Shown here: positions 12,563-42,124 of the stretch, piece after piece | How the letters are laid out: the number at the start of each line of letters is the position of its first letter | Numbering within the stretch: the first letter of the stretch is position 1 | DNA from: Nanobdellota archaeon | GTDB lineage: Archaea; Nanobdellota; Nanobdellia; SCGC-AAA011-G17; ARS1403 | Assembly: GCA_002687825.1 (NCBI GenBank) | Contig: NZBI01000022.1 | Span: 1-42,124, forward strand | DNA: 42,124 bases | Reading direction: 5' to 3' | Position numbers and translations under genes: made by a program | Notes under the pieces: model-generated | What the model saw: the letters and a program-made list of their open reading frames with translations, nothing else | What the model was told of the DNA's origin: nothing | Database searches by the model: none

Positions 12563-14101
12563 ATGTACACTATATTAGATTGTTATACGGATGAAGCAGC
12601 TGGATTAGGGGTTCCACCTTATTTAGGGACTTATCCTAGGTATGTTTATGGTTATTTGAATAAGAAAAATACTAAATATATTACAATAGATGATTTGAGG
12701 TTGTTTAAGAAATATGAAGGTAAAGAGAAAGAAATTACATTAAAAGATAAAAGTCAAATTTCTACATATAATTTGACTAAGAATGATATTAAAAAAGTTT
12801 TGGAGAAAACTAAGACTTTAATTGTTATTGTTGGAGTTCATGTTCCTGGAAAATATTTAAGTGCGTTACCTGGGACTTTGAAAGAAGTTAGTGAGCTAAT
12901 TAAAGATATTAAATGTTTTAAGATTTTGACTGGTCCTGCTGTTTATGGTAATCAATTATTAGGGGGGAAGTTTTCAGAATCTGTACCTCTTTTAAAAAAA
13001 GACGTTCACGAGAAAAATCAAGGAGTATTTGATGAAGTTAGTGTAAATCAAGGAGTATTTGATGAAGTTAGTGTAAATCAAGGAGTATTTGATGAAGTTA
13101 GTGTTAATTTTTTTAGATTTGGTTATGATGAAGTTTCTAAAATTTCAATTAAAGGAGCTGAGATATTAAAGCAAATAAAAGATCCTAGAGTTATTGAAAT
13201 TGAAACTGGGAGAGGTTGCGACATTGGCAAATGCAGTTTTTGTACTGAACCAATTAAAAATAGAGTTGAGTATAGAGATAAAAAAGATGTTTTAAATGAA
13301 ATTAAAGAATTTTATAAATTAGGGGCGGAGTATTTTAGATTAGGGAAGAATACTTGTTTTTATTCTTATCCTGAAGCTGTTTCTCTTTTGAAAGATTTGA
13401 AAAAATTAAAGTTAAAAGTGTTACATATAGACAATGTTAATCCTGTTAAAGTTATGATGGATAAAAATGATGAGATAACTAAAACTATAGTTGATGTTTG
13501 TACTTCTGGAAATATTGCAGCTTTTGGTGTTGAAAGTTTTGATTCTAAGGTTGTTAAAGAAAATAATTTAAATTGTAGTCCTGAAGTTGCGTTAAAAGCT
13601 ATTAAGAAAATTAATGAAATAGGTGGAGAAAAAGGAGAAAATGGATTACCTAAGTTTTTACCTGGGATAAATATTATATTTGGGTTAATTGGAGAAAGTA
13701 AAAAAACTCATAAAGAAAATATGAAGTATTTGAAAAAAATATTAGATAGTAATTTGTTGTTAAGAAGAATTAATATTAGACAAGCTGCAGTTTTACCAGG
13801 GACGCAGTTAATGAAAGAAGCTGGAAATAAGTTTTTGAGGAAAAATAAAAAATATTATTGGAAATGGAGAAATGAAATTAGAAGTAAAATAGATAATGAA
13901 ATGTTAAAGAAAGTTGTTCCTAAAAATACTATTTTAAAAGAATGTTATGCTGAAATTTATGATGGCAATAAAACATTTTTGAGACAATTTGGAACTTATC
14001 CATTAGTTATTGGTGTTGAAGGTAGACTAGAATTGAAGAAGTTTTATAATGTTAAAGTTTTAGAACATATGCAAAGAGGGCTTGGTGGAGAAGTAATATG
14101 A
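12563..14101 (+). CDS. Radical SAM protein, resembles the COG1031 Fe-S oxidoreductase group
   Basis: 512 residues. The opening (ILDCYTDEAAGLGVPPYLGTYPRYV) and GPAVYG near 124-129 match my memory of the archaeal COG1031 radical SAM group. The cluster motif is GCDIGKCSFCTEP (Cys 219, 224, 227): spacing C-x4-C-x2-C, one residue longer than the canonical C-x3-C-x2-C. Downstream are FGVESFDSKV and INIRQAAVLPGTQL, usual for SAM barrel strands. Substrate unknown. Two oddities: three perfect in-frame 10-residue repeats NQGVFDEVSV at 152-181, just before the barrel; and a C-terminal tag LEHMQRGLGGEVI whose coding DNA recurs at the next two gene junctions. It overlaps the next gene by ATGA. Confidence 0.8.
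   Translation: MYTILDCYTDEAAGLGVPPYLGTYPRYVYGYLNKKNTKYITIDDLRLFKKYEGKEKEITLKDKSQISTYNLTKNDIKKVLEKTKTLIVIVGVHVPGKYLSALPGTLKEVSELIKDIKCFKILTGPAVYGNQLLGGKFSESVPLLKKDVHEKNQGVFDEVSVNQGVFDEVSVNQGVFDEVSVNFFRFGYDEVSKISIKGAEILKQIKDPRVIEIETGRGCDIGKCSFCTEPIKNRVEYRDKKDVLNEIKEFYKLGAEYFRLGKNTCFYSYPEAVSLLKDLKKLKLKVLHIDNVNPVKVMMDKNDEITKTIVDVCTSGNIAAFGVESFDSKVVKENNLNCSPEVALKAIKKINEIGGEKGENGLPKFLPGINIIFGLIGESKKTHKENMKYLKKILDSNLLLRRINIRQAAVLPGTQLMKEAGNKFLRKNKKYYWKWRNEIRSKIDNEMLKKVVPKNTILKECYAEIYDGNKTFLRQFGTYPLVIGVEGRLELKKFYNVKVLEHMQRGLGGEVI
13016..13105 (+). repeat. Three tandem copies of a 30-bp in-frame repeat
   Basis: Copies at 13016-13045, 13046-13075 and 13076-13105; the only difference is the last base of copy 3. 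Each encodes NQGVFDEVSV. Near identity in a coding region suggests a recent expansion or an ongoing variable site. Confidence 0.95.
14048..14091 (+). repeat. Junction repeat, copy 1 (end of the radical SAM gene)
   Basis: 44 bp encoding the tail VKVLEHMQRGLGGE; 39 of 44 bases equal copy 2 by hand alignment. It ends in GGTGGAGA just ahead of the next gene's ATG. Confidence 0.9.
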
Positions 14102-14484
14102 GTGACCATGATAAAGAAGAAGGAGATAATTTAGTAGTTGTAAGAGCTATTCAAGATCTTGGGCTTAGAAAATTGGATCAAAATTTTTTTGATGAGCTTG
14201 AAAGACTATACGAGAAACCAAGTATCGATGAGGTTATCACGGAAGAAGTCCCTCTGATTAGAACAAGATCTCCTTATTTTTTTGAGAGACATCTAATAGA
14301 TTTAGGAAACATAGATGAACGTCTAAAGGACCTTTACCCAGATGATTATGACAATGTTTCTTATTGTTTTAAGGTTCGATTAAGACAAGCAAGATATCTT
14401 TTATTAGAAGAACCTGATAAAACAGAAGCACTAAATGAAACTGTTCGTGGTTTAAAGAAAATTCTTGATGGGGGAAACGTATGA
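14098..14484 (+). CDS. Unknown 128-residue protein, first insert of the junction-repeat array
   Basis: Acidic, helical, no signal peptide or membrane segment. Recognisable blocks: LVVVRAIQDLGLRKLDQNFFDELERLYEK, then IDLGNIDERLKDLYPDDYDNVSY and a helix FKVRLRQARYLLLEEP. No family recognised. The ATG overlaps the stop of the radical SAM gene (ATGA), and its own stop overlaps the ATG of a 19-codon reading frame that carries junction repeat copy 2. Its 3' end itself lacks the EHMQRGLGGE tail. Codon use looks slightly less A+T-biased than that of the radical SAM gene. Confidence 0.6.
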   Translation: MSDHDKEEGDNLVVVRAIQDLGLRKLDQNFFDELERLYEKPSIDEVITEEVPLIRTRSPYFFERHLIDLGNIDERLKDLYPDDYDNVSYCFKVRLRQARYLLLEEPDKTEALNETVRGLKKILDGGNV

Positions 14485-14540
14485 GAAATATTAAAGTTTT
14501 GGAACATATGCAAAGAGGTTTAGGTGGAGAGATATGTTAG
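14481..14540 (+). CDS. 19-residue reading frame carrying junction repeat copy 2
   Basis: ATG 14481 to TAG 14540 encodes MRNIKVLEHMQRGLGGEIC. It begins inside the ATGA stop of the upstream gene and ends over the start of the next. It is almost exactly the C-terminal tail of the radical SAM protein. It may be a leftover of a duplicated gene end, or a coupling peptide that carries ribosomes to the next start. Expression is unproven. Confidence 0.4.
   Translation: MRNIKVLEHMQRGLGGEIC
14487..14530 (+). repeat. Junction repeat, copy 2
   Basis: 44 bp matching copy 1 at 39 positions. It lies between the two unknown genes and is followed by the ATG at 14534. Confidence 0.9.
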
Positions 14541-15001
14541 AAGAAAATTTAAGATATTTATTATGTGATAGGGGTTTGGAATTATTTCAAAATGGTGATC
14601 TGGATTCTGAGCATTTGCGAGAAATGGGTGATTTATTTGGATATAATATTGATTCCTATGCAAAATTTTCTAACAATTTGAAGATAAAGAGGCTAATAGA
14701 CAAGAAACGATATGATGTTTTTAGACATTTTTATTTGGGTAATCAAAATGGAATTAGATCTTGGATTGAGGGATTGTCAAGAGGTTATTATAAAAAAAAT
14801 ATGAATAAATTTTTTGATGGAGTTTATGGTCTATTTGACACTCTTGAAGTAGTTAGGCTTCCTATGATTTTTGGTTTTATTAGACAATTATCTGAAGAAA
14901 ATGATATTGAATATGAAAATTTGTTAAGAGAATTTGAGGAAAGTTGGGATGATTTTAAAACTGAACATATGGAAAGAAGTTTGGGTGGAGAAATAATATG
15001 A
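14534..15001 (+). CDS. Unknown 155-residue protein, second insert of the junction-repeat array
   Basis: Helical protein without signal peptide (MLEENLRYLLCDRGLELF; NLKIKRLIDKKRYDVFRHFYLG; GLFDTLEVVRLPMIFGFIRQLSEEND). No family recognised. The last residues, TEHMERSLGGEII, match the tail of the radical SAM protein although the rest of the two proteins is unrelated, because the gene ends in junction repeat copy 3. The stop overlaps the next ATG (ATGA). Confidence 0.6.
   Translation: MLEENLRYLLCDRGLELFQNGDLDSEHLREMGDLFGYNIDSYAKFSNNLKIKRLIDKKRYDVFRHFYLGNQNGIRSWIEGLSRGYYKKNMNKFFDGVYGLFDTLEVVRLPMIFGFIRQLSEENDIEYENLLREFEESWDDFKTEHMERSLGGEII
14963..14991 (+). repeat. Junction repeat, copy 3 (end of the 14534 gene)
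   Basis: 29 bp matching copy 2 at 26 positions, read in the same frame (EHMERSLGGE). It is shorter and more diverged than copies 1 and 2. Confidence 0.8.
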
Positions 15002-15579
15002 CTACTTTAGTTGAAAAAAATTGTTTGGATAATGCTGCTAAATGGAACTCTATGCATACTGAGAAAGGAAGAGTTGAAAGAACATTTGGCGAACACTTTC
15101 ATGAATTTGAAGGCGCTAATATTCTTGATGCTGGATGTTCTGTAGGATTTACTACTTTGGAAATTGGAAGACATTCTAGAAATTCAACTGTCACTGGATT
15201 AGAGGATAACTACATCTGTAATTTGTTTGGAGATCAATTAATCCATAGTAGAAATGTAGATGTTAGATTTAGGATAGGAAATTTTTATAAACTTGATGAA
15301 TTATTTCTTCCTGAAGATTTAGATGCTATTTTCGCTATGAATAATTTAGTTCCTTGTTCTACTTCAAATTTAACTTTTAGACAACAAGAGGCAATAGCTA
15401 GAAATTTTAATACTTGTCTTGTTGAAGGTGGGGAACTTTATTTATCTTCTTTAAGGAATTTTGCTATACTTTCTAAAAAGGGAGATAAGTTTTTGGAGAA
15501 AGAAGTTGTTGGAGATTTTAGAGATTCCGATTGTTATGGTCATTTACAAGAAATTTATGGAATAGAATGTTATACTTAA
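14998..15579 (+). CDS. Class I SAM-dependent methyltransferase
   Basis: 193 residues. Motif I is ILDAGCSVGFTTLEIG (about 42-57), the glycine-rich SAM loop, followed by the acidic end of strand 2 (VTGLEDNY). DLDAIFAMNNLVP is the motif IV region and CLVEGGELYLSSLRN the motif VI/VII region, the usual order of Rossmann methyltransferases. The substrate is not evident; the lack of an NPPY motif argues against DNA-amino or glutamine methylation. It begins inside the ATGA after junction repeat copy 3 and its end overlaps the dphB start by 13 nt. So it is translated as part of the array and could modify a translation component together with dphB. Confidence 0.75.
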   Translation: MTTLVEKNCLDNAAKWNSMHTEKGRVERTFGEHFHEFEGANILDAGCSVGFTTLEIGRHSRNSTVTGLEDNYICNLFGDQLIHSRNVDVRFRIGNFYKLDELFLPEDLDAIFAMNNLVPCSTSNLTFRQQEAIARNFNTCLVEGGELYLSSLRNFAILSKKGDKFLEKEVVGDFRDSDCYGHLQEIYGIECYT

Positions 15580-16289
15580 TTGGATTAGGATTAGGGAATG
15601 AGAAGAGTTTAAGTTTAGAAGGGTTAGAAGCTATAAAAAATTGTGATAAAGTGTTTTTGGAATGTTATACTTCTAAGATTAATTGTAGTGTTGAGGATTT
15701 AGAAGAATTAACTGGGAAAAATATTATTAGAGTTAATAGAAATGTTGTTGAGGAAGAGTTAGATGTTAAAGATGCTAAAGAGAAAAACATTGCGTTATTA
15801 ATAATTGGAGATGTTTTTTCAGCTACTACCCATATAAGTTTGTTTAAAGATTGTACTGAGAAAGGCGTTGAGGTTAAAATAATTAATAATGCTTCTATAT
15901 TAACTGCTGTTGGTATTACGGGGTTGGAATTATATAAATTTGGGAAAGTTGCTAGTATTCCTTTTGAAAATGAAAATGTTAAAGGACCTATTAAAATATT
16001 AGAGGATAATCAGAAAATAGATGCTCATACTTTATTTTTATTAGATTTAAAACCTTTAGAGAATAAATATTTAAGTATTAAAGATGCGATTGAGTATTTA
16101 GAGAAAAATAATGTTAAAGAAAAAGTTGTTGGTTGTAGTAGATTAGGCCAAGAAAATTATAAAATTAAATATGGAAAAATGGAAGAACTTAAAAATGAAG
16201 ATTTTGGAGAAGGACCATATTGCTTAATTATACCAAGTAAAAAATTACACTTTGTTGAAGAAGAAATGTTAGAAAAATTTAAAATTTAA
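15567..16289 (+). CDS. dphB: Diphthine synthase
   Basis: 240 residues from the ATG at 15567 (MLYLIGLGLGNEKSLSLEGLEAI), chosen because the family starts exactly with MLYLIGLGLG; a longer frame from 15531 adds residues overlapping the methyltransferase. Further signatures: CDKVFLECYTS, LLIIGDVFSATTHISLF, INNASILTAVGITGLELYKFGKVASIPF and LFLLDLKPLENKYLSI. The enzyme methylates the modified histidine of translation elongation factor 2 with SAM, a step of diphthamide synthesis found in archaea and eukaryotes. Length is near normal. Its TAA shares bases with the stop of the convergent 16286 gene. Confidence 0.95.
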   Translation: MLYLIGLGLGNEKSLSLEGLEAIKNCDKVFLECYTSKINCSVEDLEELTGKNIIRVNRNVVEEELDVKDAKEKNIALLIIGDVFSATTHISLFKDCTEKGVEVKIINNASILTAVGITGLELYKFGKVASIPFENENVKGPIKILEDNQKIDAHTLFLLDLKPLENKYLSIKDAIEYLEKNNVKEKVVGCSRLGQENYKIKYGKMEELKNEDFGEGPYCLIIPSKKLHFVEEEMLEKFKI

Positions 16290-33941: not shown

Positions 33942-33972
33942 AACCTTTTTAGGAAAAACGTTCACGAAAAAG
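33941..33972 (+). repeat. Dispersed A-rich intergenic repeat, copy E1
   Basis: GAACCTTTTTAGG, then AAAAACGTTCACGAAAAAG. It aligns with the reverse complement of the repeat at 39482-39515. Its CCTTTTTAGG also stands at TATA distance (about 29 nt) from the ATG at 33978. Confidence 0.6.
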
Positions 33973-33977
33973 AAAAA

Positions 33978-34220
33978 ATGAAGAAACTAAATGAAAAAGC
34001 TTTAGGATTGAGTTTAGGAATTACTTTTGGAGCTGGAATGCTAATTACCGGGTTAATTTCTTTAACTGGATATGGGGTTGAGATTGTTAATTTAATTGGA
34101 ACTGTTTACAAAGGGTTTAAACCTAGTATTTTAGGAAGTTTGATTGGAGGAGTTTATGGATTTATAGATGGATTTATTGGTGGTTATTTAATTTCTTGGT
34201 TGTATAATTATTTTAGTTGA
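33978..34220 (+). CDS. Small Gly-rich membrane protein of the 'phage holin-like' archaeal/bacterial family
   Basis: 80 residues, two hydrophobic segments (LGLSLGITFGAGMLITGLISL; ILGSLIGGVYGFIDGFIGGYLISWLYNYF). It matches the small proteins often labelled 'bacteriophage holin' (LGSIIGAIWGFVDGFIGG), which are common in genomes without prophages, so a lytic role is not implied. Likely a helix-packing membrane protein; function unknown. Confidence 0.65.
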   Translation: MKKLNEKALGLSLGITFGAGMLITGLISLTGYGVEIVNLIGTVYKGFKPSILGSLIGGVYGFIDGFIGGYLISWLYNYFS

Positions 34221-34250
34221 ATCTTTTTAAGAAAAACCTTCACTAAAAAA
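34219..34250 (+). repeat. Dispersed A-rich intergenic repeat, copy E2
   Basis: GAATCTTTTTAAG then AAAAACCTTCACTAAAAAA, beginning at the stop of the 33978 gene. Same pattern as E1 with CCTTCAC in place of CGTTCAC. Confidence 0.6.
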
Positions 34251-34260
34251 TAAAGAAACA

Positions 34261-34270
34261 TTTATATTTT
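34261..34270 (+). promoter_or_regulatory. TATA box, leaderless promoter of the ZIP-like gene
   Basis: TTTATATTTT, centre 26 nt before the ATG at 34291. Confidence 0.5.
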
Positions 34271-34290
34271 CTAAAAGATAATTTGTAAAG

Positions 34291-37961: not shown

Positions 37962-37986
37962 TATGTGTACATATATGTGTATGTGT

Positions 37987-38244
37987 ATGGGAACTAAAAC
38001 AATTTCTATAATGGATGATGCATATAATATTTTGTTGAGTAGAAAACATGAAAATGAGAGTTTTTCAGAAGTTATTAGAAAGTTGGTTGGAAAAAAGACG
38101 GATATTATGGAATTTGCTGGAGCGTGGAAAGATGTTCCTGATAAAGAAATAGAAGGTATGAAGAAGAGAATAAACTCTATAAGAAGGAAAGCTACTGTAG
38201 ATTTATTAAAAAAACTGGAAAAAGATGATATGCATAGACACTGA
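37987..38244 (+). CDS. vapB: VapB-type antitoxin
   Basis: 85 residues from the ATG at 37987 (MGTKTISIMDDAYNILLSRK). This is the archaeal ribbon-helix-helix/DUF217-type antitoxin start: a strand TKTISI followed by helix DAYNILLSR and NESFSEVIRKLVGKK. The C-terminal acidic-basic helix (KEIEGMKKRINSIRRK...LLKKLEKDD) should wrap the toxin. Upstream in-frame ATGs would add MCTYMCMC only; they are closer to the TATA box but not homologous. Overlaps vapC by 20 nt. Confidence 0.85.
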   Translation: MGTKTISIMDDAYNILLSRKHENESFSEVIRKLVGKKTDIMEFAGAWKDVPDKEIEGMKKRINSIRRKATVDLLKKLEKDDMHRH

Positions 38245-38611
38245 TTGTATTATTGATTTTTTAAAAGATAAAGAAGGAGCAGTTAATTTTGTCGATAGTT
38301 ATAAGGATGAGATTGTTACTACTGAAATTAATGTTTTTGAAGTTTTTATCGGTATTTATACAAAAGATGATCATTTAAGAGAAGAAGAATCTGCTATAAA
38401 ATTTTTTGATTCTATAGAAATTTTAAGGATTCATGGTTGGGGGATGAAAGCTGCTGAAATCTTAGCTAATTTGATTAAAAACGGTAATGTAATAGAGGAA
38501 AACGATTGTTTTATTGCCTCAATTATTTTGCTAAATGGTTGTAATAAGATAATAACCAGAAATGAAAAACATTTTTCTAGGATTGAAGGAATAGAAATTA
38601 TAAAATATTAA
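38225..38611 (+). CDS. vapC: VapC-type PIN-domain toxin
   Basis: 128 residues. PIN acids: D5 (MICIDTDCIIDFL), E34/E39 (TTEINVFEVFIG), D94 (EENDCFIASI), and ITRNEKHF near the end, where many members have D and this one His. A Mg-dependent RNase that usually cuts tRNA or rRNA when VapB is degraded. The operon order VapB then VapC and the overlap are standard. Convergent 4-nt stop overlap with the TGS protein. Confidence 0.9.
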   Translation: MICIDTDCIIDFLKDKEGAVNFVDSYKDEIVTTEINVFEVFIGIYTKDDHLREEESAIKFFDSIEILRIHGWGMKAAEILANLIKNGNVIEENDCFIASIILLNGCNKIITRNEKHFSRIEGIEIIKY

Positions 38612-39472: not shown

Positions 39473-39482
39473 TTTTAAATAT
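39473..39482 (-). promoter_or_regulatory. TATA box, leaderless promoter of the TGS protein gene
   Basis: TATTTAAAAC on the minus strand, centre 27 nt before the ATG at 39450. It abuts the inverted repeat pair at 39482-39556. Confidence 0.5.
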
Positions 39483-39556
39483 TTTTGGTGAAGCTTTTTG
39501 TTAAAAAAGGTTCTGTGATTAAAAGAACTTTCTTAAAAAGAACCTTCACTAAGAAA
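39482..39556. repeat. Dispersed A-rich repeat, inverted pair E3
   Basis: Minus-oriented half 39482-39515 (TTTTTGGTGAAGCTTTTTG, then TTAAAAAAGGTTCTG) and plus-oriented half about 39524-39556 (AAAGAACTTTCTTAAAAAG, then AACCTTCACTAAGAAAT). AAGGTTCT and AGAACCTT pair perfectly, and GGTGAAG faces CCTTCAC, so the pair can fold into a hairpin. It sits in the divergent spacer before both flanking genes. Confidence 0.65.
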
Positions 39557-40156: not shown

Positions 40157-40228
40157 AAAAACCTTCACCAAAATAAATATTCGTGGAAATTCTATTTTTG
40201 GTAAAGCTTTTTGTTAAAAAAGGTTTTG
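40152..40228. repeat. Dispersed A-rich repeat, inverted pair E4
   Basis: Plus half about 40152-40175 (TTAGAAAAACCTTCACCAAAA) and minus half 40195-40228 (TTTTTGGTAAAGCTTTTTG, then TTAAAAAAGGTTTTG). Arms match at about 15 of 18 positions and can fold into a hairpin. The minus half equals the one at 39482 at 32 of 34 positions by eye. It lies between the convergent MscS-like gene and 23S rRNA, so here it could act as a two-way terminator. Confidence 0.65.
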
Positions 40229-40284
40229 CAACTAAAAAAATAAATTTCACAATTCAAAATATAAGTTTAACATTGGTTTTGTAA

Positions 40285-42124
40285 GAATGAGTTGTTAGTA
40301 ACCGCACGCTAAATTTCTCGCCGGAGCTTGAAACTTACACGCCAGTCCTATCGAACCTGTCTTTTACAGGTACTCTAAGATGTTTCTTTTCTAGGTCAGC
40401 TTCGTGCTTAGATGCTTTCAGCACTTATCCAATAAAGGCGTAGCTGCTCTGCCTGCCCTGTCGGACAACAGATACACCAGAGGCCTCGAACCATTGTTCC
40501 TCTCGTACTAAATGGTCCTTCCTATCAAACATCAACACTTCCAGTAGATATCATACATACTGTCTCACAACGTATTAAACCCAGCTCACGATCCGTTTTA
40601 ATGGGTGAACACCCCCACCCTTGGTCGCTTCTGCACAACCAGGATACGGAGAGCCGACATCGATGTAGCAAGCCGCGCCGTCGATTTGAGCTCTTAGGCG
40701 CGACGACTCTGTTATCCCCGAGATAGCTTTTCTGTCATCTCTAACCCCCATCAAGGAGGTTTAGAGGTTCGCTAGACCTGACTTTCGTCTCTGGATTCTT
40801 TGTTTGTCAGAATCCAGTCAGGCCGGCTTTTGCTCTTGCACTCTTCACAGGAGTTCTAAACCTGTTGAGCCGACCTTTGGGCCCTACTGATATCTTTTCA
40901 GCAGGGGCCGCCCCAGCCAAACTACCCGCCTATAAATGTCCTAGATTTCTAGTTAGTGAAGCAGGTTTTATTGGGTGGTATCTCACTTGAGTCTACACTT
41001 TTCCCGAAAGAAAAGTTTGAACGACTCCCACCTATACTGAGCAATGAAACCTACCTCACACTCATAGGTTGTAGTAAAGTTCTACGGGGTCTTCGCTTCC
41101 CACTGGAAGTCACTGGCCTTTGCACCAGTAAAGTGTGTTCGGGGGATTTTAGCTAGGGACAGTGGAAGTCTCGTTGCGCCTTCATGCGAGTCGTCAATTA
41201 AACGACAAGGTATTTCGCTACCTTAAGAGAGTTATAGTTACCCCCGCCGTTTACTAGCTCTTACTTCAGTTGAAACTGAGATTTGAGTACTAGCACTGGG
41301 CAGACGTCACCTTCTATACAAGTCCTTTCGGAGTAGCAGAAGGTTAAGTTTTTATTAAACAGTCGGACCTCCTTTGTTATTGAATCCTGTAATCGCAATC
41401 ATATGATTACAAACACAGGAACAGCTTAAACCGAAGCTACGCTGCTAATTTGCTGAATTCCCTTAGCTAAATTGGTCCCACATACCTTGGGCTATTCACC
41501 CTGGGCACCTGTGCTGGTTCTGGGTACGATTATTCAAGTTACTTACCAATTCTATTTTTACGAAATCCTGGCATCAACCAAATCGACTCAAGGTCGACAC
41601 ATCTTAAGTTTAAGCAGGTTCTCACCATTACGGTACTTCCCTGCCTTATCTTAATTGATCTTAACGACGATTAAGATTGATTTAGCCAGAACTGTCTAGA
41701 ATTGGTCTTACGTTACCGTGTGTACTTAAATAGTAAAGGAATTTTAACCTTTTTCCCTTTCCCCTTGTCCAAGTTATGGACTTGGTTAGGATCGACTTAC
41801 CCTCAGCTGAATTCCAGTGCTGAGGAAACCTTGCCCTTTCGGTATTAAGGATTCTCACCTTATTTAGATCTTACTACCACCAGGATTTTCATCTTTACTA
41901 GGTCCATCTTTTCTTGCGAAAAAACTTCTACCCTAACAAAGCGCCTGCCTACTACACATCCACTATAAGCGGATGGTTTGCAATATCGGTAATCAGTTTA
42001 GTCCCGTCCATTTTCAGGGCTTAATGTCTTGACAGGTAAGCTATTACGCACTTTTTAAAGGATTGCTGCTTCTGAGCATACCTTCCTGCTGTCTATGATG
42101 TTAAACACCTTTCACCCTTTAACA
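40285..42124 (-). rRNA. 23S ribosomal RNA, 3' two thirds, truncated by the window
   Basis: Minus strand. Recognised segments: the GTPase centre (AGAAGCAGCAATCCTTTAAA, near 42055), the peptidyl-transferase and domain V stretches, the sarcin-ricin loop (AGTACGAGAGGAACAATGG, about 40495-40510), and the 3' region GGATAAGTGCTGAAAGCATC (about 40420-40440). The 5' third lies beyond base 42124. The 3' end is placed near 40285 by comparison with remembered archaeal ends (ACTAACAACTC) and is uncertain by some 20 nt. From the GTPase centre to the 3' end the length agrees with E. coli, so no large intron is present in this part. Higher G+C than the protein genes around it. Confidence 0.96.

Follow-up and report, generated by a model that had tools for sequence, protein, structure and literature searches.

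Two orphan genes in the genome of a Nanobdellota archaeon (here called G000; an assembly of 25 contigs, 87% complete) stand between copies of the 3′ end of their upstream neighbor, a pattern that we attribute, with a probability of about 0.77, to repeated insertion with variable-length target duplication at packed gene junctions. The observations behind this reading are the repeats themselves, uninterrupted (empty) sites in relatives, and the recurrence of the same pattern at other junctions, for which we give statistics. The window, i.e., the whole 42,124-nucleotide stretch of DNA analyzed, is contig C22 of G000; the congener used for comparison is G001.

Table 1. Features of the radical SAM–DPH5 region, with their positions in the window
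Feature	Position	Strand	Basis or remark
Radical SAM protein, 512 aa; upstream host gene and source of the repeat	12563..14101	+	Pfam Radical_SAM, 9.5e-11
Repeat copy 1, in use as the 3′ end of the radical SAM gene; contains the ribosome-site-like stretch GGTGGAG before X	14048..14091	+	
Inserted orphan gene X, 128 aa	14098..14484	+	Start overlaps the radical SAM stop (ATGA); stop lies 2 nt before copy 2
19-codon frame MRNIKVLEHMQRGLGGEIC formed by copy 2	14481..14540	+	Sequence
Repeat copy 2	14487..14530	+	39/44 versus copy 1; last 29 nt equal the single tail of G001
Inserted orphan gene Y, 155 aa, continuous in frame with copy 3	14534..15001	+	No homologue found in the searches given in the text
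Repeat copy 3, presumably older, with greater divergence; forms the end of Y and the methyltransferase leader	14948..14991	+	26/29 versus copy 2
Inserted SAM methyltransferase-like gene, 193 aa	14998..15579	+	Methyltransf_25, 8e-5, below the cut-off
DPH5 diphthine synthase; ancestral downstream neighbor	15570..16289	+	TIGR00522, 4.9e-73; adjoins the radical SAM gene in G001, G012, and G043

Within the window, the genes are ordered radical SAM, X, Y, methyltransferase-like gene, DPH5 (Table 1). A sequence-only reading of this DNA had proposed that the end of the radical SAM gene occurs there three times, and it does. Copies 1 and 2 agree at 39 of 44 bases, and copy 3 agrees with copy 2 at 26 of the last 29; the best unrelated matches on either strand of 763 kb of G000 reach 28 of 44 for a whole copy and 20 of 29 for a 29-mer. 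Chance falls far short of explaining copies 1 and 2 and the 29-nucleotide core of copy 3. Outside this core, copy 3 is only weakly similar, its first 15 nucleotides not rising above background. As had also been proposed, copy 2 forms a 19-codon frame (probably a by-product), copy 3 is the end of Y, and each copy runs into the next ATG. Every copy contains GGTGGAG, with the next start codon directly after it (ATG at 14098, 14534, and 14998), and GGTGGAGA lies immediately before every start codon at the radical SAM/X/Y/methyltransferase boundaries. The rest of Y is indeed unrelated to the radical SAM protein, the BLASTP match being limited to the last 12 residues. One detail of the sequence-only reading needs correction: the peptide LEHMQRGLGGE of the radical SAM end is not identical in all copies, since copy 3 encodes TEHMERSLGGE.

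The C-terminus ..VTGHMLRSLTGEVV is conserved in ~50 radical SAM homologues. Because the tail is the native C-terminus of these proteins, it is the copies following X and within Y that are derived. Over its last 29 nucleotides, copy 2 differs from the G001 tail at none, and copies 1 and 3 differ from it at three positions each. Over the full length, the greatest change is seen in copy 3, which supplies the in-frame end of Y. Elsewhere in the radical SAM gene (window 13015-13108), there are three in-frame 30-bp tandem repeats encoding NQGVFDEVSV; this region coincides with a gap between matched segments in several relatives and looks like an in-frame repeat expansion.

Neither X nor Y had a match in Pfam, NCBIfam, PHROGs, PADLOC, IMG/VR, or 60 related genomes, and neither matched a recombinase or transposase family; no recombinase was found at the window locus. 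Both proteins are predicted to be helical, at low confidence (pLDDT, 54; AlphaFold2 run on single sequences). Codon usage is slightly atypical in X (z, -1.7) and typical in Y. Among X, Y, the methyltransferase, DPH5, and the radical SAM protein, BLASTP found no mutual similarity except that of the last 12 residues of Y to the radical SAM protein. By analogy with the cargo of such insertions elsewhere (see below), X and Y may together be an addiction module. We considered the end of the methyltransferase gene (..GHLQEIYGIECYT) as a fourth copy of the tail and rejected it. It resembles the tail of G001, but the resemblance is not significant, with 278 of 906 gene ends as good at the DNA level and 45 of 906 as good at the protein level.

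A check for empty sites had been suggested, and such sites were found in the congener G001 and in G012 and G043, which are less closely related. In G001, the radical SAM gene overlaps DPH5, with a single tail and no insert (..GGTGGAGAAATATGCTC.. / ..GGTGGAGAAATATGCTCTATTTAATAGG..); in G012, it overlaps or abuts DPH5; and in G043, the two genes are directly adjacent. X, Y, and the methyltransferase gene were not found in the assembled part of G001, which is ~73% complete and in which the junction itself is intact. Other sequence lies between radical SAM and DPH5 in G004, G005, G015, G032, G033, and G059, none of it with copies of the tail. Since relatives have empty sites or different genes between radical SAM and DPH5, we conclude that this junction is repeatedly used for gene gain and that three genes were gained in the lineage of the window.

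We scanned 762,688 of the 775,340 bases of G000 (all except C21:20001-32652) for the same footprint. In the flank test, the 5′ flank of each ORF was compared with its own 3′ flank at a threshold score of ≥16, with shuffled pairs as the expectation. The threshold was reached by 13 genes, versus 0.75 expected, and about half of them (~7) are clear insertions on inspection: X; an ATP-grasp gene on C25 (33 bp, exact); and genes encoding 71 aa on C5, 167 aa on C12 (22 bp, exact), 83 aa on C9, 123 aa on C23 (18 bp, exact), and 66 aa on C13. Y and a locus at the EF-2 gene were detected by a gene-end scan. Part of the flank signal had other sources and was set aside: promoter or ribosome-site similarity (C7 and C18), tandem paralogues with shared ends (C13, 4463-6870), repetitive protein sequence (C17), and a repeated intergenic hairpin, CTTTTTGTTAAAAAAGG, whose 16-base core occurs with ≤2 mismatches in 24 places, about half of them intergenic.

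The hairpin family has the form GGTRAAG/GCGTTT + CTTTTTGTTAAAAAAGG + TTCTG/AACAG, with arms that appear to covary. Its sites in G000 include window positions 39480-39512 and 40193-40225, C4 at 1.2-2.5 kb and 18.7 kb, and C5 at 31.1 kb and 51-55.2 kb. The hairpins often lie just 3′ of genes, in runs 0.6-1.4 kb apart, and may be terminator-like or a separate class of repeat. An 80-aa membrane gene (window 33942-34290) lies between two similar hairpins (CCTTTTTAGGAAAAACGTTCACG / ATCTTTTTAAGAAAAACCTTCAC), which explain why the flank test flagged it. The window also contains two adjacent ORFs (37963-38611) that by eye resemble a VapB/VapC toxin-antitoxin pair and the 3′ part of an archaeal 23S rRNA gene (40275-42124, minus strand), cut by the window end.

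At C22, C23, C9, and the EF-2 locus, the inserts are flanked by direct target repeats, and the repeat is single at the uninterrupted sites of relatives. On C23, the 123-aa orphan stands between NusA and rpsL, flanked by two exact 18-bp copies of TATAATTGTAAGATGAGT (the NusA end plus the rpsL start); NusA and rpsL overlap by ATGA, with no insert, in G004, G005, G009, G016, and G030. On C9, the 83-aa orphan that precedes eS17 has a complete copy of the junction (last codon, stop, TTTAAA box, ATGGG) on either side; G005 has this junction once, without the 83-aa gene. The EF-2 gene is followed by a VapB/PemK pair and then by a second, decayed copy of the EF-2 end, 107 bp long; six relatives lack this second copy. 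For the C5 locus, the comparison is with G001, where the glycosidase gene and the gene after it overlap, unlike in G000. The junction of TrmI and the PIN gene is a second insertion hotspot: a NUDIX gene and the 167-aa gene are inserted there in G000 (C12, reverse complement, 23.5-25.3 kb), a different 72-aa gene is inserted in G001 (C16, reverse complement, 8.4-9.7 kb), and copies of TTAAGAAAGGTTTAAAAGTTTA mark the insert boundaries in both genomes.

Repeat length varies from 18 to 107 bp between loci. Each repeat is the local gene's own end, and no sequence core is common to the gene-end repeats of different loci. Identity between the copies is ~90%, and not complete, at C22 and the EF-2 locus; the copies at C25 (33/33), C23 (18/18), and C12 (22/22) match perfectly. 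For X and for the inserts on C12, C23, and C25, the second copy starts at the stop codon of the insert or no more than 2 nucleotides from it.

Similar arrangements were found in related genomes. In G004 (L028, 8441-9003), just upstream of an Era-like GTPase gene, a ParE-type toxin gene and an antitoxin-like gene lie between exact 31-bp copies of a gene end (AAAATAATCTCTGTAAAATAGAAATGTTTAT). In the single-contig genome G037, gene-end copies bracket pairs of a nucleotidyltransferase gene and a second gene, one of the partners being HEPN-like, as well as the gene for a Fic-like protein (assigned by eye; no Pfam match). For a pooled test of six sequence sets with simple longest-ORF calls, gene ends were compared with the downstream 2 kb and gene starts with upstream sequence, and matches scoring ≥18 were counted. 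Matches were obtained for 21 of 2929 gene ends (including a few tandem paralogues and ribosome-site repeats), 6 of 2836 gene starts, and 3 of 4807 gene interiors. As screening statistics, the P values are 7e-7 for ends versus interiors and 0.006 for ends versus starts.

From these observations we infer the order of events, the step at the DNA level, and the role of selection. The radical SAM gene and DPH5 would originally have been adjacent and overlapping, so that a new gene would have had no room between them. Non-homologous insertion would have brought genes into this junction and duplicated the target, placing the last 30 to 50 nucleotides of the radical SAM gene, the ribosome-site-like stretch, and the start codon on both sides of the insert. 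Copy 1 would have been retained as the end of the upstream gene, the insert would start on the duplicated start codon, and the displaced copy would serve as the leader of the next gene. The simplest history would comprise at least two such events, each with its own duplication: insertion of Y (copy 3, fused into the Y frame), followed by insertion of X (giving copies 1 and 2, with 89% identity). Other junctions of G000 and of related DPANN genomes would have undergone this process as well.

Because the repeats range so widely in length and no common site or recombinase was found, staggered-break repair or replication template switching would be plausible at the DNA level; these two and a single crossover of a donor circle are our candidates for the primary step. 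Variable length without a common sequence speaks against the action of a transposase or site-specific recombinase. Every duplicated segment holds the upstream stop codon and, where the genes are packed, the downstream leader and start codon. Since an unduplicated insertion at a packed junction would damage a neighbor, selection alone can explain why survivors are found with junction duplications and gene interiors are found without them. On this argument, selection would keep only junction-preserving insertions.

Homologous or one-sided recombination offers another route to the same layout, though we consider it rather unlikely. Here, a donor circle, or a fragment homologous at one end, would have carried the new gene together with a radical SAM tail and crossed over within the tail. 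The identity of the last 29 nucleotides of copy 2 to the G001 tail, from which copy 1 is off at 3 positions, fits such a donor, as does the imperfect likeness of the copies at C22 and the EF-2 locus; however, synonymous drift of copy 1 gives the same pattern, and the repeats at C25, C23, and C12 are perfect. Such recombination also requires a donor with the gene already in the same junction, and none was seen. A site-specific cassette system, in which a recombinase adds circular units of gene plus tail at the tail, as in integrons, is very improbable. The sequence-only reading had raised a cassette-like array arising by insertion into the 3′ end of a gene. Insertion at the radical SAM 3′ end with duplication of that end is borne out by the empty sites and the recurrence, but an array in the integron sense is not, there being no common repeat and no recombinase-family match for X or Y. 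The likeness to an integron consists in single genes in an array with a repeat after each, a clean empty site, and three genes in one place. Unlike in integrons, the repeats are ends of the local host genes, with no attC-like site or core common to the loci, and the recommended integrase search found none at the locus. A motif search of 906 ORFs, drawn from the assembled sequence outside C21:20001-32652, returned one Xer-like tyrosine recombinase, on another contig of G000 (C18, 9.6-10.2 kb); it is split by a frameshift and is possibly broken or an assembly error. Elements with tyrosine integrases likewise regenerate the 3′ end of the target and leave a displaced copy on the far side, but the inserts here are 0.2-1.2 kb long, lack an integrase, and have a different target at every locus. 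As to insertion sequences and transposons, neither X nor Y belongs to a transposase family, no inverted repeats were found at insert ends among those listed, and the duplications are long and variable, in contrast to the fixed short target duplications of such elements.

Tandem duplication of a unit of tail plus gene, followed by extreme divergence of the copied gene, would also repeat the tail. True tandem paralogues with shared ends do exist on C13, but X, Y, the methyltransferase, and DPH5 are mutually dissimilar, only the end of Y resembling the radical SAM protein, and the cargo elsewhere is clearly foreign in kind (VapB/PemK and ATP-grasp), that of the EF-2 locus contradicting the idea; we regard it as extremely unlikely. 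We give almost no credence to a functional or convergent repeat, in which the tail persists because it serves as a leader for ribosome binding or because its peptide is a substrate of the radical SAM enzyme. The position of GGTGGAGA directly before each start codon and the minigene encoding the tail peptide would suit such a role, but the tail is an ordinary C-terminus family-wide, the DNA identity extends well past the ribosome site, and the empty sites and other loci would be left unexplained. A ribosome-site or peptide function may account for the copies having stayed conserved and is compatible with insertion by target duplication. Equally negligible is an assembly artefact: an incomplete metagenome-assembled genome in 25 contigs invites the suspicion, but the copies have diverged by different substitutions, their frames are intact, and the same pattern occurs in independently assembled genomes, G037 among them.

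Insertion with target duplication has precedents. The sequence-only reading knew of no described element with this layout, which was too strong a statement: insertion with long target duplication in Helicobacter pylori was described in 2000, reportedly by Nobusato et al. in Gene 259:99. Such insertion was reportedly found by comparing two H. pylori genomes and was linked to restriction-modification genes (Nobusato et al. 2000, as cited in PMC1643837); the Helicobacter target duplications are described as long and variable (PMC3031569). The two cases share genes other than those of insertion sequences, direct target duplication of variable length, an empty site in a relative, and addiction-type modules among the cargo. 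They differ in that the Helicobacter events reportedly concern restriction-modification genes and strains of one bacterium, whereas ours concern a DPANN archaeon, analyzed with one genome per species. The cargo in DPANN archaea comprises orphans, toxin-antitoxin pairs, enzymes, and ATP-grasp, versus restriction-modification systems as reported for Helicobacter. In the DPANN case, moreover, the duplicated stretches extend across gene junctions and keep overlapping genes whole, and a single junction served at least twice. By analogy, the window case appears to work like the Helicobacter mechanism, differing in organism, cargo, and position. In Arabidopsis, transposed ordinary genes have direct target-site repeats, the repeat is also present at the empty orthologous site, and recombination through circles has been proposed (PMC2869330). 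The likeness to our case lies in direct target repeats around ordinary genes, and the difference lies in the plant genome and in positions that are not operon junctions (PMC2869330).

Our findings bear on how very small genomes admit orphan genes to their overlapping operons while the neighboring genes stay intact. A mechanism put forward for restriction genes of bacteria is thereby carried over to archaea, with orphans and toxin-antitoxin pairs as its cargo. Each duplicated junction leaves a footprint that can be read and paired with an empty site, and the rate of insertion, the cargo, the donor, and the mechanism could be counted on this basis across thousands of DPANN genomes. More speculatively, and on balance doubtfully, gene gain in DPANN archaea may follow a dedicated or semi-dedicated route that is used again and again, by which small modules (toxin-antitoxin pairs and orphan genes, with X and Y perhaps one such module) insert at gene 3′ ends and at junctions that overlap, duplicating targets of variable length. 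If so, this route would be an uncharacterized mechanism of mobility and a main path by which orphan genes enter packed operons.
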